Source: Streptomyces sp. GS7
Lineage (GTDB): Bacteria; Actinomycetota; Actinomycetes; Streptomycetales; Streptomycetaceae
Length of the DNA: 64,000 bases
Reading direction: 5' to 3'
Assembly (NCBI RefSeq): GCF_009834125.1
Contig: NZ_CP047146.1
Location: 1,605,501-1,669,500, forward strand
The translations under genes and the position numbers were made by a program. A model generated the notes under the pieces. That model ran no database searches. It saw only the letters and a program-made list of their open reading frames with translations, and was not told the origin of the DNA. Shown here one piece after another: positions 9,054 through 59,928 of the stretch (position 1 is the first letter of the stretch; each line of letters begins with the position of its first letter).

Positions 9054-9620
9054 CTACGCCGGCGGGTGGGGCAAGACGAGGACCATGACGTCGTGGAGAT
9101 CGGCACCGGCCCACGGGCGAGCGTCACCGACTTTGCGGTAGCCCCACGATCGGTATGCCGCTTGTGCTGCCTCATTCACCGGATGGACGTTGAGTACCAC
9201 TCGCTCGGCTTCGATGCCGTGGAGGAGCGTCTCGTGCAGTCGGCGGGCGATGCCGTGTCCGCGCCATGGCAGGCGCACGGCCAGCTCCATCAGGCCGAAG
9301 GTGCGGTGGCCGTCCTCGCGACGCATCTCGTCGGGCACGGGCTCGGTGAGCGAGTCCCACCAGCCTGTCTTCGGCCCGAGGGGGCAGCCGTAGGCCATGC
9401 CGACGGGTGTGCCGTCGGGTGTGCGGGCCAGGGCAGCCCGGAAGGCGCGTCTCCGTGTCCGGGAGCGGAAACGCCGGAAGGTGGCCACGACGTCGTCGTC
9501 AGTCTCGCAGTAGGGCGGCTCGGCGAATACCTCGGCGTAGACGACCGTGAAGTCACCTTCGGCCTTCTCCGCAGCCGGGCCGTCCATGCATGCGACGGTG
9601 GTGCCTTCGGGTTGGGTCAT
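9054..9620 (-). CDS. GNAT-family N-acetyltransferase
   Basis: A 188-residue acetyl-CoA-dependent acyltransferase. The family core is visible in the second half: a substrate strand FGLMELAVRLPWRGHGIARRLHETLL is motif A, with the R/Q-x-x-G-x-G/A acetyl-CoA loop as RGHGIA, followed by NVHPVNEAAQAAYRSWGYRKVG, the C-terminal motif with the conserved Tyr. The start is ATG 9620, preceded by GAGGGG, rather than the upstream in-frame ATG 9659 that would run into the regulator gene. It begins 10 nt after the stop of the XRE/TPR regulator and is surely co-transcribed with it. Substrate unknown; it could modify a protein or small molecule of the same cassette. Confidence 0.85.
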   Translation of the reverse strand: MTQPEGTTVACMDGPAAEKAEGDFTVVYAEVFAEPPYCETDDDVVATFRRFRSRTRRRAFRAALARTPDGTPVGMAYGCPLGPKTGWWDSLTEPVPDEMRREDGHRTFGLMELAVRLPWRGHGIARRLHETLLHGIEAERVVLNVHPVNEAAQAAYRSWGYRKVGDARPWAGADLHDVMVLVLPHPPA

Positions 9621-9630
9621 ATGGCGCCCC

Positions 9631-10893
9631 TCAGACGGTCTCGCGGATGCGGTCGCCACACTCGCGGGCGACCGCCGTGTCGATTGCGGCGACGGCGCGC
9701 TGGAACTTCCGGATCTTGTCCAGCAAACGCGGCGACGAGATCCCTCCGCACGCCTGAAGTGCGGTGGTCATCTCGGCACATGCCTCCTCGGCTTCCCCCG
9801 CCTCAAGGAGTACACCCGCGAGTTTCACGCGGTACGAGGCGCTGTTGCGGAGCAGGTCACCACCGATACCGGTCACCGCAGCACGCAGAAAGGGAACGGC
9901 GCGCTTGGGCTGCTCCGCTCGTACATACATGTCTGCCGTGGCGTAGTCCACCTCGAACGGTCCGACGAACTGGGCCCAGTTGGGTACCGCGGTGTCCGCA
10001 TCGACTCGGCCCTGGTGACTGACGGCGCGGCTCAAGGCCCGACGCGCTCCGGACAGGTCTCCCACATGGGTGGCCACGTTGGCGGCACGCAGTGCGATCA
10101 CGAGGTGCACGGTGTGCCCGGCGCCGGCGCGTTGGGCGAGGCGGTAGGCATTCTCGACCGCGCTCGCGGCTTCCCATGCCCGGTCGGCCCTGATGGCGAG
10201 CAGCACGAGCGTTTCCAGGACGGAGACTTGAAGGAGAGGGCTGTCGACGAGCTGGGCCGTTGCCAGTGCTTCCATGCATGCCGCTCGCCCCTCGGCGATG
10301 CGCCCACCGTCGTAGCCGTACCAAGCTCGGTGCCCGTGCAGCTCGGCCAGCATCGTCTGAAGCTCGCGACCGACGCGGCTGGTGTACGAAGCCGCGCTGA
10401 GCGCTCCCGTGATCTCGTTCTCGATCCGGCGCGCTGCGGTCATGGCCGGCACGCTGCCCTCGCTGTGGTCCGTCTGGTACAGACCGTCGAGTCGTTCGCG
10501 CAGCCGGCCGAGGTCACCGACGCCGATCCGAGGTCCTGACCGAGCAGACACCAGAGCCGTTGCGGCAAGCACACCGGCGTCGGCGACGAACGTCCTCCGA
10601 TTCACCCCTTCAGGATCGCCGATCGGCGCGGACACGGACAGGCGATGGTCTGGAACATCGAACCCCATCTCGTAGAGGGGGACCCCGAACATTGCTTCCA
10701 GGACGGTCTGTTGACTCGGGTGGGGCAGAGGCGGAGGGGTCTCGCATTCCCAGCGGCGCAGCTGCCGAACGCTCAACGATGCATCAGTGTCGAGACGCAG
10801 GGCTTCGTGTCTGAACGCTTTGACGAACGCCTGCTGCGTGTACCCCGCGGACTGCCGTAACTGCGCCGGCCTGTTGCCACCGATGCCCACCAT
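9631..10893 (-). CDS. XRE-type regulator with TPR-like C-terminal region, TTA codon 12
   Basis: A 420-residue regulator. Residues about 10-85 resemble a helix-turn-helix (LRQSAGYTQQAFVKAF, then RQLRRWECE), and the rest is an all-helical, Ala-rich region of degenerate tetratricopeptide-like repeats, as in many Streptomyces XRE/TPR proteins that sense a peptide or partner. ATG 10893 follows GGGGAAG at 6 nt. Codon 12 (10858-10860) is TTA, the rare leucine codon read only by the bldA tRNA, so its translation should be delayed until development. It is divergent from a small-protein operon across 167 bp and co-directional with the GNAT gene. It is likely the local regulator of the cassette; the target is inferred, not shown. 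Confidence 0.8.
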   Translation of the reverse strand: MVGIGGNRPAQLRQSAGYTQQAFVKAFRHEALRLDTDASLSVRQLRRWECETPPPLPHPSQQTVLEAMFGVPLYEMGFDVPDHRLSVSAPIGDPEGVNRRTFVADAGVLAATALVSARSGPRIGVGDLGRLRERLDGLYQTDHSEGSVPAMTAARRIENEITGALSAASYTSRVGRELQTMLAELHGHRAWYGYDGGRIAEGRAACMEALATAQLVDSPLLQVSVLETLVLLAIRADRAWEAASAVENAYRLAQRAGAGHTVHLVIALRAANVATHVGDLSGARRALSRAVSHQGRVDADTAVPNWAQFVGPFEVDYATADMYVRAEQPKRAVPFLRAAVTGIGGDLLRNSASYRVKLAGVLLEAGEAEEACAEMTTALQACGGISSPRLLDKIRKFQRAVAAIDTAVARECGDRIRETV

Positions 10894-11060
10894 GCGCTTC
10901 CCCTTGCGGCTGCGGTTGGTCCTCCCACCGTAACGAGCGGGCCGTGGTGGCGGACGAAAACGTCCGCCCAAACGTCCGCCTCCGCGGCACCGGAAACGCC
11001 CCAACTAGCAGTGGACTAGAGGCTCACCGCTTCATCGGCCAGGCATCGAGGAGGCAAGGC

Positions 11061-11384
11061 GTGAGCAGATGCACCCCCACGTACGTCGAGCAGAAGAACC
11101 TGCAACGGGATGACCCGGATGAAGGGACCGCAGGTCGTGAAACGTCCGGTGAGCACCCCGTGGCCATGCCGAAATGGGTCTTCATCGGGGCTCGCGTGCT
11201 TGACACCGTCAAGGAGTGCGAGGCCGTCGTCCACGGGATCGGACAGCCCTACGTGCTCCACCACGAGCAGCCGTCCTGCGTGTGGCTGCGCCCGCCGGGC
11301 GGCGGGTTGGAGTGGTGCGTGGAGGTCAGTGCCATGAGACCGCTTGAGGAGGAGCCGTGCCCCGTCGTTCCCGAGAAGAGCTGA
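11061..11384 (+). CDS. Small hypothetical protein of the CYTH/radical SAM cassette
   Basis: A 107-residue protein I do not recognise. GTG 11061 has a near-ideal GAGGAGG 6 nt upstream. Composition is balanced, with four cysteines, a central hydrophobic stretch KWVFIGARVLDTV, and a C-terminal sequence VWLRPPGGGLEWCVEVSAM that looks like beta strands; no signal peptide or membrane helix. It is the first gene of the plus-strand operon, overlapping the next start by 28 nt, so translational coupling is likely. It may be a partner or substrate protein of the enzymes downstream; that is only a positional guess. Confidence 0.6.
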   Translation: MSRCTPTYVEQKNLQRDDPDEGTAGRETSGEHPVAMPKWVFIGARVLDTVKECEAVVHGIGQPYVLHHEQPSCVWLRPPGGGLEWCVEVSAMRPLEEEPCPVVPEKS

Positions 11385-12304
11385 CCGAAGCTCGCCACAA
11401 GTTCATCGCCAACCGAGAAAACGTGATCGCCCGGTGCAACGAGGGCGAGTCCGTCGCCTCGCTGGCCCGCTCGTACGGCTACGTAGGGGACGGCTGGGTG
11501 GCCAAACAGTTGGACTCTTGGGCTGTGCCTCGCCGGGACCGGTCCGCAGCCCCGGTCGCCCGCGGGTCCGGAGTCCCGCCGATCGATGCCCCGCTGACGA
11601 CGCATCACACCACACCAGAGAGCCCTCGCCCGTCCGCCGTCAAGGCTGTCAAAGCCGACGCTCGCCGGATCGGGTTCGGTGGCCAAGAAGTTCCCCTGCG
11701 CAAGGGCCTCATGCATGAGGTTGGAGGTGTCGAACGCAGAAAGATCCGCCGGGACGCAACTCAGCGAGACGGACGCGCCCGCGACACGGTTACGCCCCCG
11801 GCAGGCTCACGCTCTCACGCACAGTACGCGGCATGCGAAAAGGAGATACATGCACACCATCGAGTACGAAGCGAAAGCGCTGGGCATCGATCCGGATGCC
11901 ATGGCCGAGCGCATCAAGGTGGCCGGGGGAGGTTTCCAGGGCGAGCGTCTGATGCGCCGCTACGTCTACGACACCGTCCCTCCGGTGGAGGGCCGTTGGG
12001 TCCGGCTGCGGGACTCCGGCGGCGCGGTGACCCTGTGTGTGAAGACGATCAGCTCGGACGAGATCGACGGCACTCGGGAGACCGAAACGACCGTCGGATC
12101 GTTCGAGGACACGCACGTGTTGCTCGGCCTCATGGGGCTCACGCACCGCGGCTACCAGGAGAACCGGCGGTCGTCGTGGCTGCTGGACGGTGTGCGGCTG
12201 GAGATCGACGAATGGCCGCGCATCCCGCCCTATCTGGAGATCGAAGGCGACACCGAAGAACAGGTGTGGGCCGCCGCCGAGCGCCTTTCCATTCCGCGAA
12301 CTGA
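11357..12304 (+). CDS. Small HTH-like protein; true 3' end uncertain (frame conflict with CYTH gene)
   Basis: GTG 11357 has GAGGAGGA 5 nt upstream and opens a convincing N-terminal segment of about 60-115 residues: RSREELTEARHKFIANRENV, then ESVASLARSYG and GWVAKQLDSW, which read as a short helix-turn-helix similar to resolvase-type HTHs. This frame stays open to 12304, overlapping the well-supported CYTH gene by 455 nt, and its sequence after about 11720 is Arg/Gly-rich and unlike real protein. So either the real product ends by a frameshift or sequencing error near 11650-11850, or the gene is decayed. The coordinates give the literal open frame; only 11357 to about 11720 looks coding. Confidence 0.4.
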   Translation: MPRRSREELTEARHKFIANRENVIARCNEGESVASLARSYGYVGDGWVAKQLDSWAVPRRDRSAAPVARGSGVPPIDAPLTTHHTTPESPRPSAVKAVKADARRIGFGGQEVPLRKGLMHEVGGVERRKIRRDATQRDGRARDTVTPPAGSRSHAQYAACEKEIHAHHRVRSESAGHRSGCHGRAHQGGRGRFPGRASDAPLRLRHRPSGGGPLGPAAGLRRRGDPVCEDDQLGRDRRHSGDRNDRRIVRGHARVARPHGAHAPRLPGEPAVVVAAGRCAAGDRRMAAHPALSGDRRRHRRTGVGRRRAPFHSAN

Positions 12305-12386
12305 CCTGACCAGCGAGAACACGACGAAGGTGTTCGCTCGGTACGGGATTGACCTCGACTCGATCAGCGAACTCCGGTTCACGTAG
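11850..12386 (+). CDS. CYTH-domain protein (triphosphatase / class IV cyclase fold)
   Basis: A 178-residue CYTH (triphosphate tunnel metalloenzyme) protein. The diagnostic ExExK motif is at the extreme N terminus (E5-Y-E7-A-K9). It is followed by alternating basic and acidic beta strands: RRYVYDTVPP, RWVRLRDSGG, TLCVKTISS, ENRRSSWLLDG, LEIDEWPRIPPYLEIEG with the metal-binding acidic pairs, and a C-terminal helix (EEQVWAAAERL). The family hydrolyses triphosphates (thiamine-PPP, PPPi) or cyclizes ATP. ATG 11850 has AAAGGAG 5 nt upstream. It is 55 nt ahead of the radical SAM gene in the same direction. The pairing with a radical SAM enzyme suggests a nucleotide-derived substrate or product; this is inference. 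Confidence 0.85.
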   Translation: MHTIEYEAKALGIDPDAMAERIKVAGGGFQGERLMRRYVYDTVPPVEGRWVRLRDSGGAVTLCVKTISSDEIDGTRETETTVGSFEDTHVLLGLMGLTHRGYQENRRSSWLLDGVRLEIDEWPRIPPYLEIEGDTEEQVWAAAERLSIPRTDLTSENTTKVFARYGIDLDSISELRFT

Positions 12387-12441
12387 ACCTCTCCACCGCG
12401 CGCTGGCGGGGTCACCAGGCCCCGCCGGCTAGGAGGCAACA

Positions 12442-13551
12442 ATGACCGACACCGACACGAACCACTTACCGGTCACGGTAGTGCCGGACCGGACCTTGCG
12501 CGTCAAGATCATTGACGCGTGTGGACTCGCCTGCAGCTTCTGCCACAACGAAGGCACACCCGTCACGACCGACAACCTCGGCCGCGAAGCCGGGCAGTTC
12601 ACGGGAACACCCGGTCGCTCCGGTCGGGTCTCGATCTACCTCTCAACGAACAGCGCAAGCTTCCTGCCGGAGCGGATCAAGGCCGATTCCGACTTCGCCT
12701 TGGCCCTGGCGGCAGTGCGCGGCAGCCTCCCGACGACCGAGGTTCACTTCACGGGCGGGGAGCCGACTCTGCACCCGGAGTTGCCGGCGCTCGTCAGCAT
12801 CGCGCGCCGCCTCGGCCTGACGGTGGGACTCACCAGCAACGGCGAGAACGGAGCGGCCGTTCTGCCCGACTGTGCGGCGGCCGGGCTCGACCGAATCAAC
12901 CTGTCCGTTTTCGGAACGACGCCCGAGGAACTTGCCGCCGTCCAGGCGCCGCGCCTCGCTTCACCGAAGCTGGCGGCGCGGAAGCTGGACGCTCTCGCCG
13001 CCACGATCGACACCGCTTCCCGGCACGGGGTGAAGGTGTCGGCGAACATCGTGATCCCGGACCATGACCACGTGGCGCGGGTGCTCCGCATTATCGAGGA
13101 GCACGGGCGGGACGTCACCGTACGGATGCTTGTGAACCTTGAGGACGACGGGGCGTCACTCGCTGCCATGCACCATGTGGTGGATCATCTCGGGGCGGTT
13201 CCGGTCCGCCGGATCGTCACCGCCGGCGCCTCCGACCAGCGCACCCGCTACCGGCTCCCCGACGGCCGGACCCTCTACGCGAAGAGCATCCGACCCGTCC
13301 GGCTGCCGGACACCTGCAAAGGGTGCCGGTTCAACAACGACCGGGACTGTCAGGAGGGGTACTACGGCGTGCGCATGTACCGGGCGCAGAACGGCCCGTT
13401 CATGGTCGGCGTGTGCATTCAGCGTATGGACCTGTGCCTGACATTGGGCGAGTTCGTGATGAGCCAGCGGTGCGCCGAAGTCCGAGACTTCCGCGAGGAG
13501 GAAGCGGCCCGGCTCACTGCCCTCTACGCGCCTACATGGGTCGCGCGCTGA
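12442..13551 (+). CDS. MoaA-like radical SAM enzyme, TTA codon 9
   Basis: A 369-residue radical S-adenosylmethionine enzyme. The CX3CX2C cluster motif is C27/C31/C34 in CGLACSFCHNEG, the SAM-binding GGEP is residues 105-108 (HFTGGEPTLHPEL), and TSNGENG continues the barrel. The C-terminal region has a second cysteine set (C292, C295, C303, C325, C332, C344), suggesting an auxiliary iron-sulfur cluster as in MoaA or SPASM enzymes. ATG 12442 has AGGAGG about 6 nt upstream. Codon 9 (12466-12468) is TTA, so translation should need bldA. Substrate unknown; its neighbours are a CYTH protein and small ORFs, not molybdopterin genes. Tandem hairpins follow immediately. Confidence 0.9.
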   Translation: MTDTDTNHLPVTVVPDRTLRVKIIDACGLACSFCHNEGTPVTTDNLGREAGQFTGTPGRSGRVSIYLSTNSASFLPERIKADSDFALALAAVRGSLPTTEVHFTGGEPTLHPELPALVSIARRLGLTVGLTSNGENGAAVLPDCAAAGLDRINLSVFGTTPEELAAVQAPRLASPKLAARKLDALAATIDTASRHGVKVSANIVIPDHDHVARVLRIIEEHGRDVTVRMLVNLEDDGASLAAMHHVVDHLGAVPVRRIVTAGASDQRTRYRLPDGRTLYAKSIRPVRLPDTCKGCRFNNDRDCQEGYYGVRMYRAQNGPFMVGVCIQRMDLCLTLGEFVMSQRCAEVRDFREEEAARLTALYAPTWVAR

Positions 13552-13604
13552 CCCTCGTGTTCGCGCTGGTCAGCGCGTGGGTTCCCGGCATGGGGAACCC
13601 ACGC
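13544..13604 (+). terminator. Double hairpin at the end of the radical SAM operon
   Basis: Two adjacent perfect stems. CGCGCTGACC/GGTCAGCGCG (13544-13553 and 13568-13577) spans the stop codon. GCGTGGGTTCCC/GGGAACCCACGC (13575-13586 and 13593-13604) has a 6-nt loop. Their arms share bases 13575-13577, so the two cannot both form fully. Strong termination without a U-tract is the simplest reading. Confidence 0.65.
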
Positions 13605-13831
13605 AACGTCGAGAAGGATTCCCGAGGCGTACGGAGTGAATAGTCCCCGTACGGCCTGGCGCAGACGGACGGGAACGGAACGGCGGGCAGGAGGGTTGCG
13701 CGTGCGCCGCGGCCGTTTCCGTTACGAATCGGCATTGCTTCCCCGCTTGTTCGAACGCTCCCAGGCGACCTCGATCAGGATCAGGAGGCATTCATGCCAT
13801 CCCCCATGCACATGGAAGGCCTCGCTGCCTC

Positions 13832-15664
13832 ATGGCCAATGACCACGATGCCCCGCCCTCCGATGCCGAACTCGCCGCGGCTTTACGGAATCCGGATTCC
13901 GATGCCGCGTTGGACGAGCTGTATCGGCGGCACCGTTCGGCGGTCCTCTCGTATGCATCCGCCTGCTGCCGGGATCCGCACACCGCCGAGGACCTCACCG
14001 CGGAGGCCTTCGCCCGCACCCTGCAGGCCGTACGATCCGGCAAGGGCCCCGAGTCCGCGTGGCGCCCGTACCTGCTCACCATCGTCCGCCGCACCGCCGC
14101 CGACTGGGCCGCCAGGGCCCGTCGCACCGAGCTGTCGCCCGACTTCGAGCAGTGGCTCGCCAACGCCCACGACGCGCCCGGCGCGGAGAGCAGCGAGGAG
14201 CGGATGCTCCGCCTGGAGGACAACAGCCTCGTGCTGCGGGCCTTCCGTTCGCTGCCCGAGCGCTGGCAGACCGTCCTGTGGCACACCGCCGTGGAACGGG
14301 ATTCGGCCCAGACGGTGGGTTCCCTGCTCGGCATGAGCCCGGCCGGTGTCAGCTCCCTGGCCTACCGGGCCCGGGAAGGACTGCGGGAGGCGTACCTGGC
14401 CGCGCATGCCGTCAGCGACTCCGCCACCGACGAGTGCCGCCGCCACAGCTCCCGGCTCGGCGCCGTGGTGCGACGCCCCGGACGCCGCAGGACCAAGGAC
14501 TTCGACCGACACCTGACCCAGTGCGAGTACTGCCGCCGCGCGCTGATCGAACTCACCGACCTCAACGAACGACTGGGTTCGGTACTGCCCGTCGCGGTGC
14601 TGCTCTTCGGAGGCTCCGCCTATGTGGCGGCACGGCTCACCGACACCGCAGTAGGAACCGGCGCGGGGGCGCTGGGCTCCGCAAGCCCGAACGGCGCCCT
14701 CCACGGAAGTACCGGACTGTGGGCGAAGCCCGGGGTCGCCACCGCCATAGCCACCGCCGTCGGGGTCGCCGTCGTCCTCCTGCCCATGCCGTTCGGCGAC
14801 CACGACGAGAGTCCGCAGAGCGCACCGCTACCTCCTCCGGTCACGCGGAAGGACACTTCGCCCAGGACACTCGGGACGCCGCCCCCGCACCTGCCCCCCT
14901 CTGCGGCCCGGCCCCCGTCCTCTTCCTCGACCCCGACGCCCACCCGGACGCCGACGCCGACTCCGACCTTGCCCCCGCCTACCGCCGCGGCCACGCCCCT
15001 GCCCTTGCCCAGGCGTGCGGCCCCCTTGTCGCCCACACCTGCGACCACGGACAAGGGCCCGGTCACAGCCCGGCATTCGCCGGCCGCCGAGCGCGAGGCC
15101 GCGCCGTCGTCCGCTCCTACGTCCACCCCTGCGGACACGCCTACGCCTGCGGGCATGCCTAAGCCCGCACCGGCCCCGACGCCTCCGCCCGCGTCGACGC
15201 CGGCCCCCAAGCCTTCGCCGCCACCCGTGCGTACGGCGCCGACGCCGACCAATCCCACGCCCACGCCCACGCCTACGCCTACGCCCACGCCCACGCCCGC
15301 CCCGGCGCCGGCGCGTCCCGCCGCGCCTCCGCCCCCGCCGCCCGCGGCACCGCCGCCCCCGCCGCCTGCCGCACCGCCGCAGGCGCCGCCTGGCAGCGAT
15401 TTCAGCGCCTGCTATCACGACACGTGTCAGGTCGAGGTGACAGGCGGGGACACGATCCCGCTCGACGGTCAGGCGGGTGTCGACGTGTTGAAGATCGTCA
15501 GCGTCGCCGGCAACATCCTGAGCTACGCCGCGACTTCGGGCAACGGCGCGCAGACTGCCAGCGGCAGCCAGTCCAGTCCCGGTACCTCGACGGTCAACCA
15601 ACTCGTCATGGACATCCTCCGTGTCGACGGGAGTCGAGCGCTCATCCGTCTCCGCAAAGGTTGA
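13832..15664 (+). CDS. ECF sigma factor fused to zinc-finger anti-sigma domain, membrane anchor and extracellular tail; TTA codon 18
   Basis: A 610-residue fusion. Residues about 25-95 are sigma region 2 (LDELYRRHRSAVLSYA, DLTAEAFARTLQAV). About 125-190 are region 4 (RSLPERWQTVLWHTAVE, GSLLGMSPAGVSSLAYRAREGL). About 221-236 hold an H-x3-C-x2-C zinc finger (H227, C231, C234) as in anti-sigma factors. Hydrophobic segments near 250-268 and 303-322 should cross the membrane. A Pro/Thr-rich tail of nearly 200 residues then leads to an 85-residue terminal domain with two Cys. Sensing outside and self-inhibition inside are therefore built into one chain. Codon 18 (13883-13885) is TTA. The ATG has no strong ribosome site. 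Confidence 0.88.
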   Translation: MANDHDAPPSDAELAAALRNPDSDAALDELYRRHRSAVLSYASACCRDPHTAEDLTAEAFARTLQAVRSGKGPESAWRPYLLTIVRRTAADWAARARRTELSPDFEQWLANAHDAPGAESSEERMLRLEDNSLVLRAFRSLPERWQTVLWHTAVERDSAQTVGSLLGMSPAGVSSLAYRAREGLREAYLAAHAVSDSATDECRRHSSRLGAVVRRPGRRRTKDFDRHLTQCEYCRRALIELTDLNERLGSVLPVAVLLFGGSAYVAARLTDTAVGTGAGALGSASPNGALHGSTGLWAKPGVATAIATAVGVAVVLLPMPFGDHDESPQSAPLPPPVTRKDTSPRTLGTPPPHLPPSAARPPSSSSTPTPTRTPTPTPTLPPPTAAATPLPLPRRAAPLSPTPATTDKGPVTARHSPAAEREAAPSSAPTSTPADTPTPAGMPKPAPAPTPPPASTPAPKPSPPPVRTAPTPTNPTPTPTPTPTPTPTPAPAPARPAAPPPPPPAAPPPPPPAAPPQAPPGSDFSACYHDTCQVEVTGGDTIPLDGQAGVDVLKIVSVAGNILSYAATSGNGAQTASGSQSSPGTSTVNQLVMDILRVDGSRALIRLRKG

Positions 15665-15740
15665 CGCGCTCCGCTGCGGGATCGGGGCGCGCGGACGGCC
15701 GGCGGGAACCGAACTGTTCCGGACCAGCCGTCCGTCGCGT

Positions 15741-15758
15741 CCCGCACGCGGGTGCGGG
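15741..15758 (+). terminator. Hairpin downstream of the ECF sigma gene
   Basis: A perfect 7-bp stem CCCGCAC/GTGCGGG with a GCGG loop, 76 nt after the stop codon; no U-tract. Weak candidate terminator. Confidence 0.35.
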
Positions 15759-15908
15759 TCATTGGGCCAAGACCTGGGCCCGGATCGTGCGGCGGCCGAA
15801 CAAGCTGCTGGAGGAGGGGGAGGAGTGGGGTTCGACGCGGTTGTGGCCTGATGTGCCCCCAGCGTGCCCTGTCGGACCGTCAGTTCGGCATCTGCCCAGG
15901 TCAACCCT

Positions 15909-15943
15909 ACGAGGGCGGCACCTGTGCGGAGGTGCCGCCCTCG
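15909..15943 (+). repeat. 35-bp hairpin repeat, right copy
   Basis: Identical over 35 bases to 8808-8842, including the GTGCGG loop, in the same orientation and 7.1 kb away. It may act as a terminator, but the exact identity of loop and flanks exceeds what convergent terminators need. Confidence 0.75.
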
Positions 15944-16226
15944 CTTTCTCCGGACTCCCCCCTCGGGAGCTGCCGCCCTCCCAGTCGGCGTGGGAGGCGG
16001 CCTTCAACGGGCCCGCGGCCGGGCCGGTTGGTTGCCCATCACCCCCCACGGGATCGAGCAATCCGGGCCGTTCGCACCGCCGTTGAATTGAGTACAGCAT
16101 TCCCGGCGGGCCCCCGCCGGCGCGACCCTTTTCAACTCTGGCCAAAAGGGCATGGTGACCGCACGTGTTGGCGTGCATACTCAGGCGTGCCGGGGGCCGA
16201 CTTCGGAAACCAAGGGTGGGGGTTCG

Positions 16227-17255
16227 GTGTTACGCGTCCATTTCAGTGGACTCGATCTGGCCCGCGTGCGGATAGCCGCACGCCCCGACGCACTGTGGGA
16301 GACAGTCCTCAGCTTTCATCGACTACGTGACAGGCGCGACGATTCGGCGTTCGGGAAATGGCGATCGGAAACGCGCGGAAAGTTGAATGGCGAAACGCGC
16401 CTGCTGGCGCCGCTGGTGCCCACCCGCGGCTATTTCCCCGATTTCCTGACGCCGGCCGAGGGCCTGCTCGGCATGGACGAGGCGCTTGCCGCGCTGCGGG
16501 AGACCCCCGCCGCCCGCCTGCACGACGAGCTCTCCCGGCTGGCTCCCGCCGCCGGCCGCCCGCTCCCCGCGTGGATACGGGACATGGCGGACGGCGAGAC
16601 CCGCGCGCTGGGCCGGCTCGCCGGGATACTCCGGCGCTACTACGAGGCGGCGGTGGCTCCGTACTGGCCTCGCGTCCAGGGCCGAATAGAGGCCGACCGC
16701 GCCGCCCGCGGCCGGGCGCTCCTGGACGGCGGCGCCGACCGCCTGCTGGCGTCCCTCCCGCCGATGATGCGCTGGCGCCCGCCCGTCCTGGAGGCGGACT
16801 ACCCGGTCGAACGCGAACTCCACCTGGGGGGCCGCGGGCTGCTCCTGCTCCCCTCCTACTTCTGCCGCCGCACCCCGGTGACCTTCTACAACCCGGACCT
16901 GACGCCGGTCCTCGTCTACCCGGTCGAGCACCAGGTCCCGCGCCTGACCCCGACGGTGCCGCCGGACCGCTCCCTGGGCCGTCTCGTGGGCCAGACCCGC
17001 TCGGCGATACTGCACGGCATAGGTGTCGGCTGCACCACCAGCGAACTGGCCCGCCGCGTCGACGTCTCCCTGGCATCCGCCAGCCAGCACGCCACCGTGC
17101 TGCGGGACGCCGGCCTCCTCTTCACCCTGCGCCAGGGGAACGCGGTGCTGCACACCCTGACGCCGCTCGGTGCGGCCCTCCTCCGCGGGGCCAGAGCGAC
17201 CGAGCAGGCGGCGGGGGGACCGGCGCCCGGGGGGACGGCGGCGGTGGAGGCGTAA
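16227..17255 (+). CDS. ArsR-type winged-helix regulator with large N-terminal domain, TTA codon 2
   Basis: A 342-residue regulator of a type common in Streptomyces. It starts LRVHFSGLDLARVRIAARPD, followed by a helical domain of about 230 residues of unknown role. The C-terminal wHTH has SAILHGIGVGCTTSELARRV, then DVSLASASQHATVLRDAGLL and the wing TLRQGNAVLHTLTPLGAALL. GTG 16227 has GGGTGGGGG about 5 nt upstream and reproduces the usual family N terminus. The second codon (16230-16232) is TTA, so its translation should depend on bldA tRNA from the outset. It is monocistronic, just outside the right 35-bp repeat. Often such genes sit near transporters; the targets are unknown. Confidence 0.85.
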   Translation: MLRVHFSGLDLARVRIAARPDALWETVLSFHRLRDRRDDSAFGKWRSETRGKLNGETRLLAPLVPTRGYFPDFLTPAEGLLGMDEALAALRETPAARLHDELSRLAPAAGRPLPAWIRDMADGETRALGRLAGILRRYYEAAVAPYWPRVQGRIEADRAARGRALLDGGADRLLASLPPMMRWRPPVLEADYPVERELHLGGRGLLLLPSYFCRRTPVTFYNPDLTPVLVYPVEHQVPRLTPTVPPDRSLGRLVGQTRSAILHGIGVGCTTSELARRVDVSLASASQHATVLRDAGLLFTLRQGNAVLHTLTPLGAALLRGARATEQAAGGPAPGGTAAVEA

Positions 17256-36481: not shown

Positions 36482-36769
36482 TCAGCTGGGGAACCCCCCA
36501 TTCTTGACCGCGGCGACGAACGAGGACCACCCCGCAGCGGAAGCCACGATCGCGGGCCCGTCCGGAACCTTGCTGTCGCGGACGGGGACGACGCCGTGGG
36601 TGGCGGAGTGGGCGGGGGAGAACTCTATGCAGTCTCCGCCGTTGGCATCGCTGTAGGAGGACTTGACCCAGGTGAAGTCGCGGGTGAACTCGACACACGC
36701 CCCGCCGTTGCCCTCGCTGTAGGACGACTTGATCCACGTGGCGGCGGCGAGATCCAAGTCGGGGCTCAT
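36482..36769 (-). CDS. DUF397 protein with two tandem repeats
   Basis: A 95-residue small Streptomyces protein. The family motif W-x-K-S-S-Y-S occurs twice: WIKSSYSEGNGGACVEF at about residues 12-28 and WVKSSYSDANGGDCIEF at 34-50, followed by VPVRDSKVPDGPAI and the C-terminal WSSFVAAVKNGGF. The usual protein has one copy, so this is an internal duplication. It overlaps the XRE gene by 4 nt (ATGA). Such proteins are paired antagonists or partners of the XRE/DUF5753 regulator. Confidence 0.95.
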   Translation of the reverse strand: MSPDLDLAAATWIKSSYSEGNGGACVEFTRDFTWVKSSYSDANGGDCIEFSPAHSATHGVVPVRDSKVPDGPAIVASAAGWSSFVAAVKNGGFPS

Positions 36770-37590
36770 GCTCGGTACTCCTTCAGCAGGTTCTTGATCA
36801 GGGCCAGTGATTGATCCGGGGCCAACGCATGCGCCCGGAGCAGATCGTAGTCATCCAGGGCGGCGTCGACCGTTTGTGCGGAATCATGCATCCTGCCTCC
36901 TACCCGGGTCTCCGTGTACAACACGGTGGGGGAGTCCGAGAAGCGCAACACGATGAAGGGCATCGTGGACGTGGCCGGAATGCCCGCCGAGAACGGCATG
37001 ACCTGAAGCGCCACGTGTGGGGACGTGGCTACCGCGAGCAGGTAGTCGAGCTGCCCTGCCATGACCTCGGCACTGCCGACGACGGTCCGCAGACACGCCT
37101 CGTGGAGGATGGCCCACAGACGCGGGGGAGCGTCCTGTTCGAACACCTCACGTCGCCGTAGCCGCGCGGCAACCTTGTCCTCGATCCCCTCGGCGCTTGC
37201 CCCGGGGTTGGCTACGCGGAAGACGGCCCTCGCGTAGTCCTCTGTCTGGACGATGCCTGTTACGAGGTTCGTCTCGTAGGTCAGGATTCGCGATGCCTTC
37301 CGTTCCAGGTTCAGATACGGAAGGAACCACGACGGGTGATCCCCTTCGTCGATCCTCCGCAGCATGCCCGCGAAGAGCCCGTTCGTCCCGAACGCGAGAT
37401 CGCAGCCGTCGGCGAACTTCTCGCTGGCCTTCACCTTCCCGGACTCCACCATGCTGACGTATGCGTAGGAGTAGCCCGCAGCTTGGCCCAAGTGCTTCTG
37501 CGTGAGATTGCGGCCCAGGCGTACCCGTTTGACGTCACGCCCGAAGCTCTGGAGCGGATTGAAGTGCTCGGGTGGGGTCGTCTCGTCCAA
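36766..37590 (-). CDS. XRE regulator with DUF5753 domain
   Basis: A 274-residue regulator counted from TTG 37590, chosen because GAGAGG lies 8 nt upstream and homologues start DETTPPEHFNPLQ. ATG 37626 and ATG 37671 are in frame but weaker. The HTH spans about residues 15-70 (GRDVKRVRLGRNLTQKHLGQ, AAGYSYAYVSMVESGKVK). The DUF5753 part has SRILTYETNLVTGIVQTEDYARAV, RLWAILHEACLRTVVGS, and VALQVMPFSAGIPATST with FIVLRFSD. It is the upstream partner of the DUF397 gene. A small palindrome-like CACTTAAACGGCAGTG (about 37648-37663) lies in the promoter region. Confidence 0.9.
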   Translation of the reverse strand: MDETTPPEHFNPLQSFGRDVKRVRLGRNLTQKHLGQAAGYSYAYVSMVESGKVKASEKFADGCDLAFGTNGLFAGMLRRIDEGDHPSWFLPYLNLERKASRILTYETNLVTGIVQTEDYARAVFRVANPGASAEGIEDKVAARLRRREVFEQDAPPRLWAILHEACLRTVVGSAEVMAGQLDYLLAVATSPHVALQVMPFSAGIPATSTMPFIVLRFSDSPTVLYTETRVGGRMHDSAQTVDAALDDYDLLRAHALAPDQSLALIKNLLKEYRA

Positions 37591-37792
37591 TGCTGTGACC
37601 TCTCGTTCTGTGGTCGCGGTCAGCATCGCCGCAGGCAGTTGCTGTAAGCACTGCCGTTTAAGTGACCCCATTCTATTGCCCGTTGCGTTGTCAGCGTGAC
37701 CGAATGGCTACACCCCGTACGCAAAGCCAGGACCCCCGCGACCGCGTGACCGGTCCGGGGGCGTGGCCACCAACCCCCTGGAGGTTGACGAC

Positions 37793-59523: not shown

Positions 59524-59596
59524 TCCCCTGTAGCTCAATTGGCAGAGCAGCCGGCTGTTAACCGGCAGGTTACTGGTTCGAGTCCAGTCGGGGGAG
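59524..59596 (+). tRNA. tRNA-Asn (GTT), copy 1
   Basis: A 73-nt cloverleaf: acceptor TCCCCTG/CGGGGGA with a T-G pair, D arm GCTC/GAGC, anticodon loop CTGTTAA, T arm ACTGG-TTCGAGT-CCAGT. No CCA is encoded. A second copy follows after 5 nt. Confidence 0.95.
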
Positions 59597-59601
59597 CTCG
59601 G

Positions 59602-59674
59602 TCCCCTGTAGCTCAATTGGCAGAGCATTCGGCTGTTAACCGGAGGGTTACTGGTTCGAGTCCAGTCGGGGGAG
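59602..59674 (+). tRNA. tRNA-Asn (GTT), copy 2
   Basis: Identical in length to copy 1 and differing only at positions 27, 28, 43 and 44 at the base of the anticodon stem; the changes keep pairing (G-C to T-A, C-G to T-G). No CCA encoded. Confidence 0.95.
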
Positions 59675-59685
59675 CAGAAAGAACG

Positions 59686-59710
59686 AGGACCCCGGAAGGG
59701 GTCCTTTTTC
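59686..59710 (+). terminator. Intrinsic terminator after the tRNA-Asn pair
   Basis: A perfect 8-bp stem AGGACCCC/GGGGTCCT with a GGAA loop followed by TTTTC, a classic Rho-independent terminator. Confidence 0.9.
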
Positions 59711-59854
59711 TTGTGCCCGGGAACCGAACGACCGGTGATCGAAGTCCTTTTGGGCAGGCAAGGTCGCCCGACGGCAGCCCGCACGGGCAGCAGATCGTAT
59801 GAGCGGCTATGCTGCGGCAGACGGCGCGCACAAATGTGCGCGACGCGCCGTGAG

Positions 59855-59928
59855 GGGGCGGTAGCTCAGCCGGTTAGAGCAGCGGACTCATAATCCGTCG
59901 GCCGTGGGTTCGAGTCCCACCCGCCCCA
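59855..59928 (+). tRNA. tRNA with CAT anticodon, probably Ile2 (lysidine) rather than Met
   Basis: A 74-nt cloverleaf: acceptor GGGGCGG/CCGCCCC, D arm GCTC/GAGC, anticodon loop CTCATAA, T arm GTGGG/CCCAC, discriminator A. The anticodon stem has a G27-T43 pair as in E. coli tRNA-Ile2, and it lacks initiator features, so I favour Ile2; elongator Met is not excluded. A long interrupted palindrome (59821-59851) and a TATGCT -10-like box (59806-59811) lie upstream. Confidence 0.85.

Follow-up and report, generated by a model that had tools for sequence, protein, structure and literature searches.

Early TTA codons recur in a Streptomyces radical SAM gene paired with a TTA-free CYTH gene

In a 64,000-nucleotide stretch of the Streptomyces sp. 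GS7 genome (G000:C1:1605501-1669500, from a single contig of 9.07 Mb; hereafter the window), four neighbouring genes carry an in-frame TTA codon close to their starts. This raises the question of why the codons gather there and whether, as a preliminary description made from the sequence alone had proposed, the four genes form one developmentally gated unit. The reading that we put forward, to which we give an even chance, is a different one: the core of the block would be a two-enzyme module, consisting of a CYTH-domain protein and a nucleotide-active, bldA-gated radical SAM (S-adenosylmethionine) enzyme, next to a divergently transcribed NsdA-type helix-turn-helix/tetratricopeptide-repeat (HTH/TPR) regulator gene with its GNAT acetyltransferase gene.

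The evidence that carries this reading is the distribution of TTA in the radical SAM gene family. We collected 101 sequences (100 homologous loci and the window), and 82 unique intact genes, 52 from Streptomyces, 26 from other Actinobacteria and 4 from Bacillota, were kept after dropping 13 identical copies and 6 sequences with a damaged N-terminus, with the greater part of the gene missing or with no start in the allowed range; one of these six (L106) has an early TTA. The four Bacillota genes are A+T-rich and hence uninformative on TTA. Within codons 1-25, TTA was present in 23/52 Streptomyces genes versus 0/26 genes of other Actinobacteria, and later in the gene it was present in 11/52 and 9/26, respectively. 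Counted per leucine codon, TTA made up 23/106 early versus 14/1710 later codons in Streptomyces, and 0/39 early versus 15/825 later codons in the other Actinobacteria. The partner CYTH gene had no TTA in any of the 52 Streptomyces cases (0/944 leucine codons). As controls, genes from 45 of the same loci had an early TTA in 1-4/396 cases when lying more than 3 kb away and in 1-3/124 cases when lying 1.1-3 kb away, and 6-10/293 genes of the same genome had one, the ranges reflecting called versus longest starts.

The early TTA codons of the family fall on four aligned sites (q2, q6, q9 and q19 in the numbering of the query), and the tree of the radical SAM genes required 14 label changes for early TTA. 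The midpoint root splits the tree into two parts, and both contain Streptomyces genes with TTA at site 19. Since a single gain followed by two losses can account for three label changes, we limit the claim to at least four sites and probably five or more origins of early TTA. In Streptomyces noursei A-2-1 the gene pair is present twice (L083 and L102), once with TTA at codon 9 and once without it.

Base composition explains little of this pattern, and the early TTA is mostly not a matter of general A/T richness. Among all codons of the Streptomyces radical SAM genes, TTA accounted for 23/1,248 early versus 14/17,616 later codons (~23-fold), while the other codons made only of A and T accounted for 25/1,248 versus 187/17,616 (~twofold). 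The same counts bear on the idea that an early TTA aids translation initiation, through weak mRNA structure or a slow ramp, and has no role in developmental control. The codons lie within codons 5-24, where ramps would be expected to act, and the twofold rise of the other all-A/T codons there is in line with this idea; however, the rise of TTA itself is far above theirs, the G+C content at third codon positions (GC3) of the early stretch, TTA excluded, is nearly equal in genes with and without early TTA (0.805 and 0.823), and the other Actinobacteria have no early TTA. We regard an initiation effect as quite improbable.

A further explanation is that TTA is a passive mark of recently acquired accessory DNA, with codon use unadapted to Streptomyces, and that nothing is gated. 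The spread of the genes is indeed patchy (the radical SAM gene was found in 35/392 genomes and the NsdA-type gene in 27/384), genes for a relaxase and MobC lie near some copies, GC3 is only 0.85, and PMC10327506 suggests the same explanation for many genes with TTA. However, a passive mark fits poorly with the concentration of TTA per leucine codon in codons 1-25 of the radical SAM gene, with the TTA-free CYTH genes that were transferred together with it, with the lack of early TTA in relatives beyond Streptomyces, and with the NsdA-type gene, whose TTA at codon 12 is retained down to 60% identity. We consider the passive mark rather unlikely, and bldA gating of the radical SAM gene remains our preferred reading.

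As for the enzymes, the radical SAM protein scored 57.5 bits with the Pfam radical SAM profile (cut-off 29.5), which places it in the superfamily; among 52 sequences, C27 and C34 of its CxxxCxxC motif are invariant and C31 is kept in at least 90%. It has a MoaA-like fold and extra conserved cysteines near the C-terminus. Membership in MoaA itself (GTP 3',8-cyclase) was rejected, the scores being 68.4, 54.8 and 49.8 bits against NCBIfam equivalog cut-offs of 325, 284 and 231. MoaA has a C-terminal Gly-Gly, which the window protein lacks. The best profile match in the PDB was AbmM of albomycin biosynthesis (8wm2), which has the CHNEG-P motif in common with the window protein at ~20% identity; sulfur insertion is not implied, and AbmM is not known to have a CYTH partner. 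The CYTH protein passed the gathering cut-off of Pfam PF01928 (29.6 bits against 23.2) and matched the profile of the triphosphate tunnel metalloenzyme Saci_0718. Enzymes of this type are marked by an ExExK motif and further acidic and basic tunnel residues, and the CYTH protein has both; in 16 sequences, E5, E7, E77, E79, D120, E130 and E132 are invariant and K9 is present in at least 90%.

The linkage of the two genes was counted in the best 80 of 156 loci, these 80 coming from named genomes. CYTH lay within 200 bases of the radical SAM gene in 78 of them, upstream in 39 and downstream in 39, the two exceptions being L098, with a radical SAM remnant, and L149, with the CYTH gene 8.4 kb off. 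In Laceyella the two genes overlap, and in Thermoactinomyces daqus they are fused into one protein of 551 amino acids with both Pfam domains (L105:9980-11635), next to which a gene for an HTH/TPR regulator runs divergently; candidate fusions are four further open frames, 543-563 codons long. The nearest relatives of the window radical SAM protein are the ones from G311 and S. noursei A-2-1. Of 46 regulator candidates (from 43 loci and the window, nearly all divergent and upstream), 25 matched the NsdA family and 10 matched DUF5753/Sco1979 at E 0.001. A search of the literature for radical SAM enzymes paired with CYTH or triphosphate tunnel metalloenzymes, with most subscription papers outside its reach, returned only an unrelated phage paper, and the module is apparently undescribed.

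Some copies lie near a relaxase gene (PF03432; L100:12237-13958) or a MobC/NikA-like gene (L114:6215-6583), which suggests that the module is carried on mobilisable elements; the radical SAM protein had no match among 72,556 plasmid and 50,697 phage records at 1e-40 and 1e-20. Decay of the module is seen in several genomes: the radical SAM gene is broken or a remnant in L296 (genome G191), L098 and L033, the last of which also has a second CYTH gene with radical SAM fragments.

By description, the module resembles the Photorhabdus 4'-thiothymidine cassette thmA-thmB-thmC, of which PMC12691670 reports that ThmC alone confers self-resistance. Each is a minimal cassette that combines a radical SAM enzyme with a nucleoside triphosphatase, a putative one in the window; thm also has a nucleoside kinase, whereas in the window the partner is a CYTH protein and no kinase gene adjoins the pair. 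A different role would be that of an anti-phage system like prokaryotic viperin, in which the radical SAM enzyme would make a chain-terminating nucleotide and CYTH would recycle it. However, the protein reached only 35.8 bits against the NCBIfam viperin equivalog cut-off of 180, so that viperin membership was rejected, it has the extra C-terminal cysteines, and a defence that young hyphae need would hardly be expected under bldA gating; a defence role seems unlikely to us. The CYTH partner is a further difference from the viperins. PADLOC gave no match for the CYTH, NsdA-type or GNAT proteins.

Under the nucleotide-active, bldA-gated reading, the radical SAM enzyme would remodel a nucleotide into an analogue or a signal, and the CYTH protein would hydrolyse the (tri)phosphate of the substrate or the product, serving product release, protection of the cell or both. 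A UUA near the 5' end would delay translation of the radical SAM enzyme until the bldA tRNA is available; bldA would delay this enzyme alone, and the phosphatase would thereby be present ahead of the reactive enzyme. In the lineage of the window, the NsdA-type regulator would be gated too. That the radical SAM gene gained TTA repeatedly and CYTH was never seen with TTA suggests a late-made enzyme with an ungated safeguard. The link to nucleotides comes from AbmM as the top PDB profile match, which PMC12691670 describes as a radical SAM enzyme of a nucleoside pathway, and from genes near parts of the family: within 10 kb of the module in 81 loci, the recurrent families were two of NUDIX type (5 each), HAD (6), TauD-like (5) and thymidylate-kinase-like (4). 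Early TTA, restriction to Streptomyces and the combination of regulators with an enzyme are also features of the bldA-controlled TTA genes of this genus, and PMC4255298 already lists clusters whose TTA falls in this or that gene. Unlike those genes, a single enzyme here gained TTA recurrently at different sites while its operon partner is TTA-free.

Several points weigh against this reading. The NUDIX, HAD, TauD-like and kinase-like neighbours each occur in just 4-6 of the 81 loci, the thymidylate-kinase-like one scores under the Pfam cut-off, and the window pair has none of them adjoining. The match to MoaA is at the level of the fold only, with viperin, AbmM and several non-nucleotide radical SAM enzymes tied behind it. 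As for the gating, the presence of TTA is not proof of bldA dependence, and the absence of early TTA in 29/52 Streptomyces radical SAM genes means that the module can do without gating. Shared descent makes the genes less independent than simple tests assume, and, given the twofold rise of other all-A/T codons, composition may contribute a small share of the signal. When the 29 Streptomyces loci without early radical SAM TTA were searched for a compensating TTA, one divergent gene (L091, 102 amino acids) had it in its first 25 called codons; this search is weak, since the gene finder trims some starts (it misses the codon-12 TTA of the window) and some loci have no called divergent gene.

The features of the block in the window are as follows.

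9054..9620, minus strand: GNAT acetyltransferase (Pfam PF00583, 33.2 bits), downstream of the NsdA-type gene
9631..10893, minus strand: NsdA-family HTH/TPR regulator (NCBIfam NF053720, 221 bits), TTA at codon 12 (10858-10860)
11163..11384, plus strand: small conserved open reading frame (ORF) of 73 amino acids, between the divergent cassettes
11850..12386, plus strand: CYTH-domain protein of the triphosphate tunnel metalloenzyme type (Pfam PF01928, 29.6 bits), without TTA
12442..13551, plus strand: MoaA-like radical SAM enzyme, TTA at codon 9 (12466-12468)
13545..13602, plus strand: double hairpin at the end of the radical SAM gene (-42.9 kcal/mol; z -6.1 versus 200 shuffles)
13832..15664, plus strand: extracytoplasmic function (ECF) sigma factor with a long Pro-rich C-terminal part (Pfam PF04542, 48 bits), TTA at codon 18 (13883-13885)
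16227..17255, plus strand: DUF5937/ArsR-like winged-helix regulator (PF12840, PF19361), start GTG16227, TTA at codon 2 (16230-16232)

All four TTA codons of the preliminary description were confirmed, as was its impression that the window genes hold no others: among 30 window ORFs that contain an in-frame TTA and span 50 codons or more, those besides the four genes were in the wrong frame, intergenic or had the TTA 5' of the likely start. In the long frame of CYTH, for example, the TTA at 11790 precedes the likely start ATG11850. The nearest candidate for a fifth TTA gene encodes a WhiJ-like DUF5753 regulator (36766-37671, minus strand), and was rejected since its TTA at 37645, codon 9 of the longest frame, lies upstream of the likely start TTG37590. 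Because the gene finder used here trimmed the N-terminus of two of the four genes (NsdA-type and winged-helix) and missed the ECF gene, perhaps through a penalty on TTA, the starts of these three were judged from the 30 best-scoring homologous loci of each. The alignment began at residue 1 in 30/30 loci for the winged-helix gene, included residue 18 in 26/30 for the ECF gene, and covered residue 12 in 22 of 30 for the NsdA-type gene, the other eight being fragments, frame-broken or repeats that were left outside the N-terminus count. The radical SAM gene has a strong Shine-Dalgarno sequence before its ATG. The homologues and this sequence argue against true starts downstream of the TTA codons.

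TTA is not confined to the block, as 13/335 called genes in a 400-kb sample of the genome contain it. PMC10327506 gives a mean of 177 TTA-bearing ORFs across 213 species, and PMC4255298 gives 147 TTA genes for S. coelicolor and reports that the streptomycete bias of TTA toward gene starts is absent outside Streptomycineae. For base rates of 2.5, 4.4 and 5.8%, the probability that at least four of seven neighbouring genes have TTA was 0.0006, 0.0034 and 0.0092 within a 56-gene window, and 0.04, 0.40 and 0.75 anywhere among 7,900 genes, where both gene numbers and the 2.5% rate are assumptions. Such a cluster is uncommon in a single window but not across a whole genome, and by itself it is a modest signal. 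A tRNA-Leu(TAA) gene is present (G000:C1:943622-943703, anticodon taa); anticodons were read for the 11 of 68 tRNA matches that span at least 82 bases, and six of the 11 were leucine tRNAs. With in-frame TTA inside supported coding sequence and a tRNA-Leu(UAA) gene in the genome, the four belong to the TTA (bldA-type) genes. Three other tRNA matches lie close together at window positions ~59524-59928 on the plus strand (G000:C1:1665024-1665428).

The four TTA genes are probably not one unit. The NsdA-type and GNAT genes run leftward, CYTH and the radical SAM gene run rightward and end in the double hairpin, and the ECF and winged-helix genes lie beyond it. The hairpin is a probable terminator without a T run; a consensus terminator scan, which requires a T run, did not list it, and the counts of the consensus promoter and terminator scans were within the range of shuffles. 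At the matching loci of G311 (L032) and S. noursei A-2-1 (L083) the ECF gene gave no match, and G191, a close relative, has a 93% identical ECF piece on contig C18 but its radical SAM remnant and winged-helix gene on C6. The ECF gene thus looks like a newcomer between the radical SAM and winged-helix genes. In L032, L083 and L296 the module has the winged-helix gene nearby, and in a genome without the radical SAM gene (G036, L294) the winged-helix gene is 1.5 kb from an NsdA-type gene; judged from these loci, it is a stable neighbour of the module. Its position, the closeness of the four genes, their shared early TTA and the low window probabilities would agree with a single developmentally gated regulatory unit, but the use of both strands, the hairpin after the radical SAM gene and the unlinked ECF gene make it very improbable. 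What may stand of the original proposal is the developmental gating, with which the tRNA-Leu(TAA) gene, the TTA conserved in two regulators and its recurrence in the radical SAM family agree. The coherent part of the block consists of two divergent cassettes, the NsdA-type regulator with GNAT and CYTH with the radical SAM enzyme.

The NsdA-type protein belongs to the NsdA family of TPR-like regulators (221 bits against the NF053720 cut-off of 75), and its assignment to NsdA proper (NF050130) was rejected at 25.4 bits against an equivalog cut-off of 830. TTA at codon 12 was found in 13/22 loci with an intact N-terminus, the window included; the NsdA-type genes beside the radical SAM gene in the other Streptomyces clade had no TTA (L110, L112, L114, L127, L130, L137, L139 and L142). 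GNAT, directly downstream, is probably co-transcribed. In 12 of 13 further loci (L284-L296) the NsdA-type gene is followed by GNAT, and 12 of these 13 stretches (8-17 kb) had no radical SAM match, so by gene order the two form a two-gene cassette that is mostly apart from the radical SAM gene. The 73-amino-acid ORF is 92% identical in G311 (L032) and G191 (L296) and 48-51% identical in L286 and L294. The ECF and winged-helix genes appear to be separate neighbours of the module bearing TTA codons of their own. The N-terminal part of the ECF protein had matches in 260/295 genomes at 1e-40, and the view that the gene is common across the genus was rejected: of the matches listed, only 14 reach 60% identity, counting the gene itself, most are at 48-55%, and its own genome has such a relative elsewhere. 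TTA occurs within codons 18-32 of the ECF gene in 3/30 loci, its own included, and in L169 it lies upstream of the start of the query. Relatives of the winged-helix protein were found in 217/295 genomes of the genus at 1e-60, with paralogues counted (its own genome has two). In its 30 best loci (L182-L211, own included), TTA is at codon 2 in nine and at codon 2 or 28 in 19, a further instance of early TTA at alternative sites.

In its fullest form, our proposal is that the CYTH-radical SAM pair constitutes a minimal cassette for nucleotide analogues, so far undescribed, and that within it Streptomyces repeatedly and independently placed only the product-forming enzyme under bldA translational control, leaving the clean-up enzyme free. 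We offer this tentatively, as a possibility that may well fail. If true, a rule of safeguard first and synthesis later would be encoded by codon choice within one two-gene operon. The radical SAM family would be a natural experiment, with replicates, on whether selection favours TTA codons for their regulatory effect, with several origins at different sites in one enzyme family, the CYTH gene as internal control and the relatives outside Streptomyces as external control. The pair would also represent unstudied chemistry in Actinobacteria and Thermoactinomycetaceae that may yield nucleotide analogues or signals.

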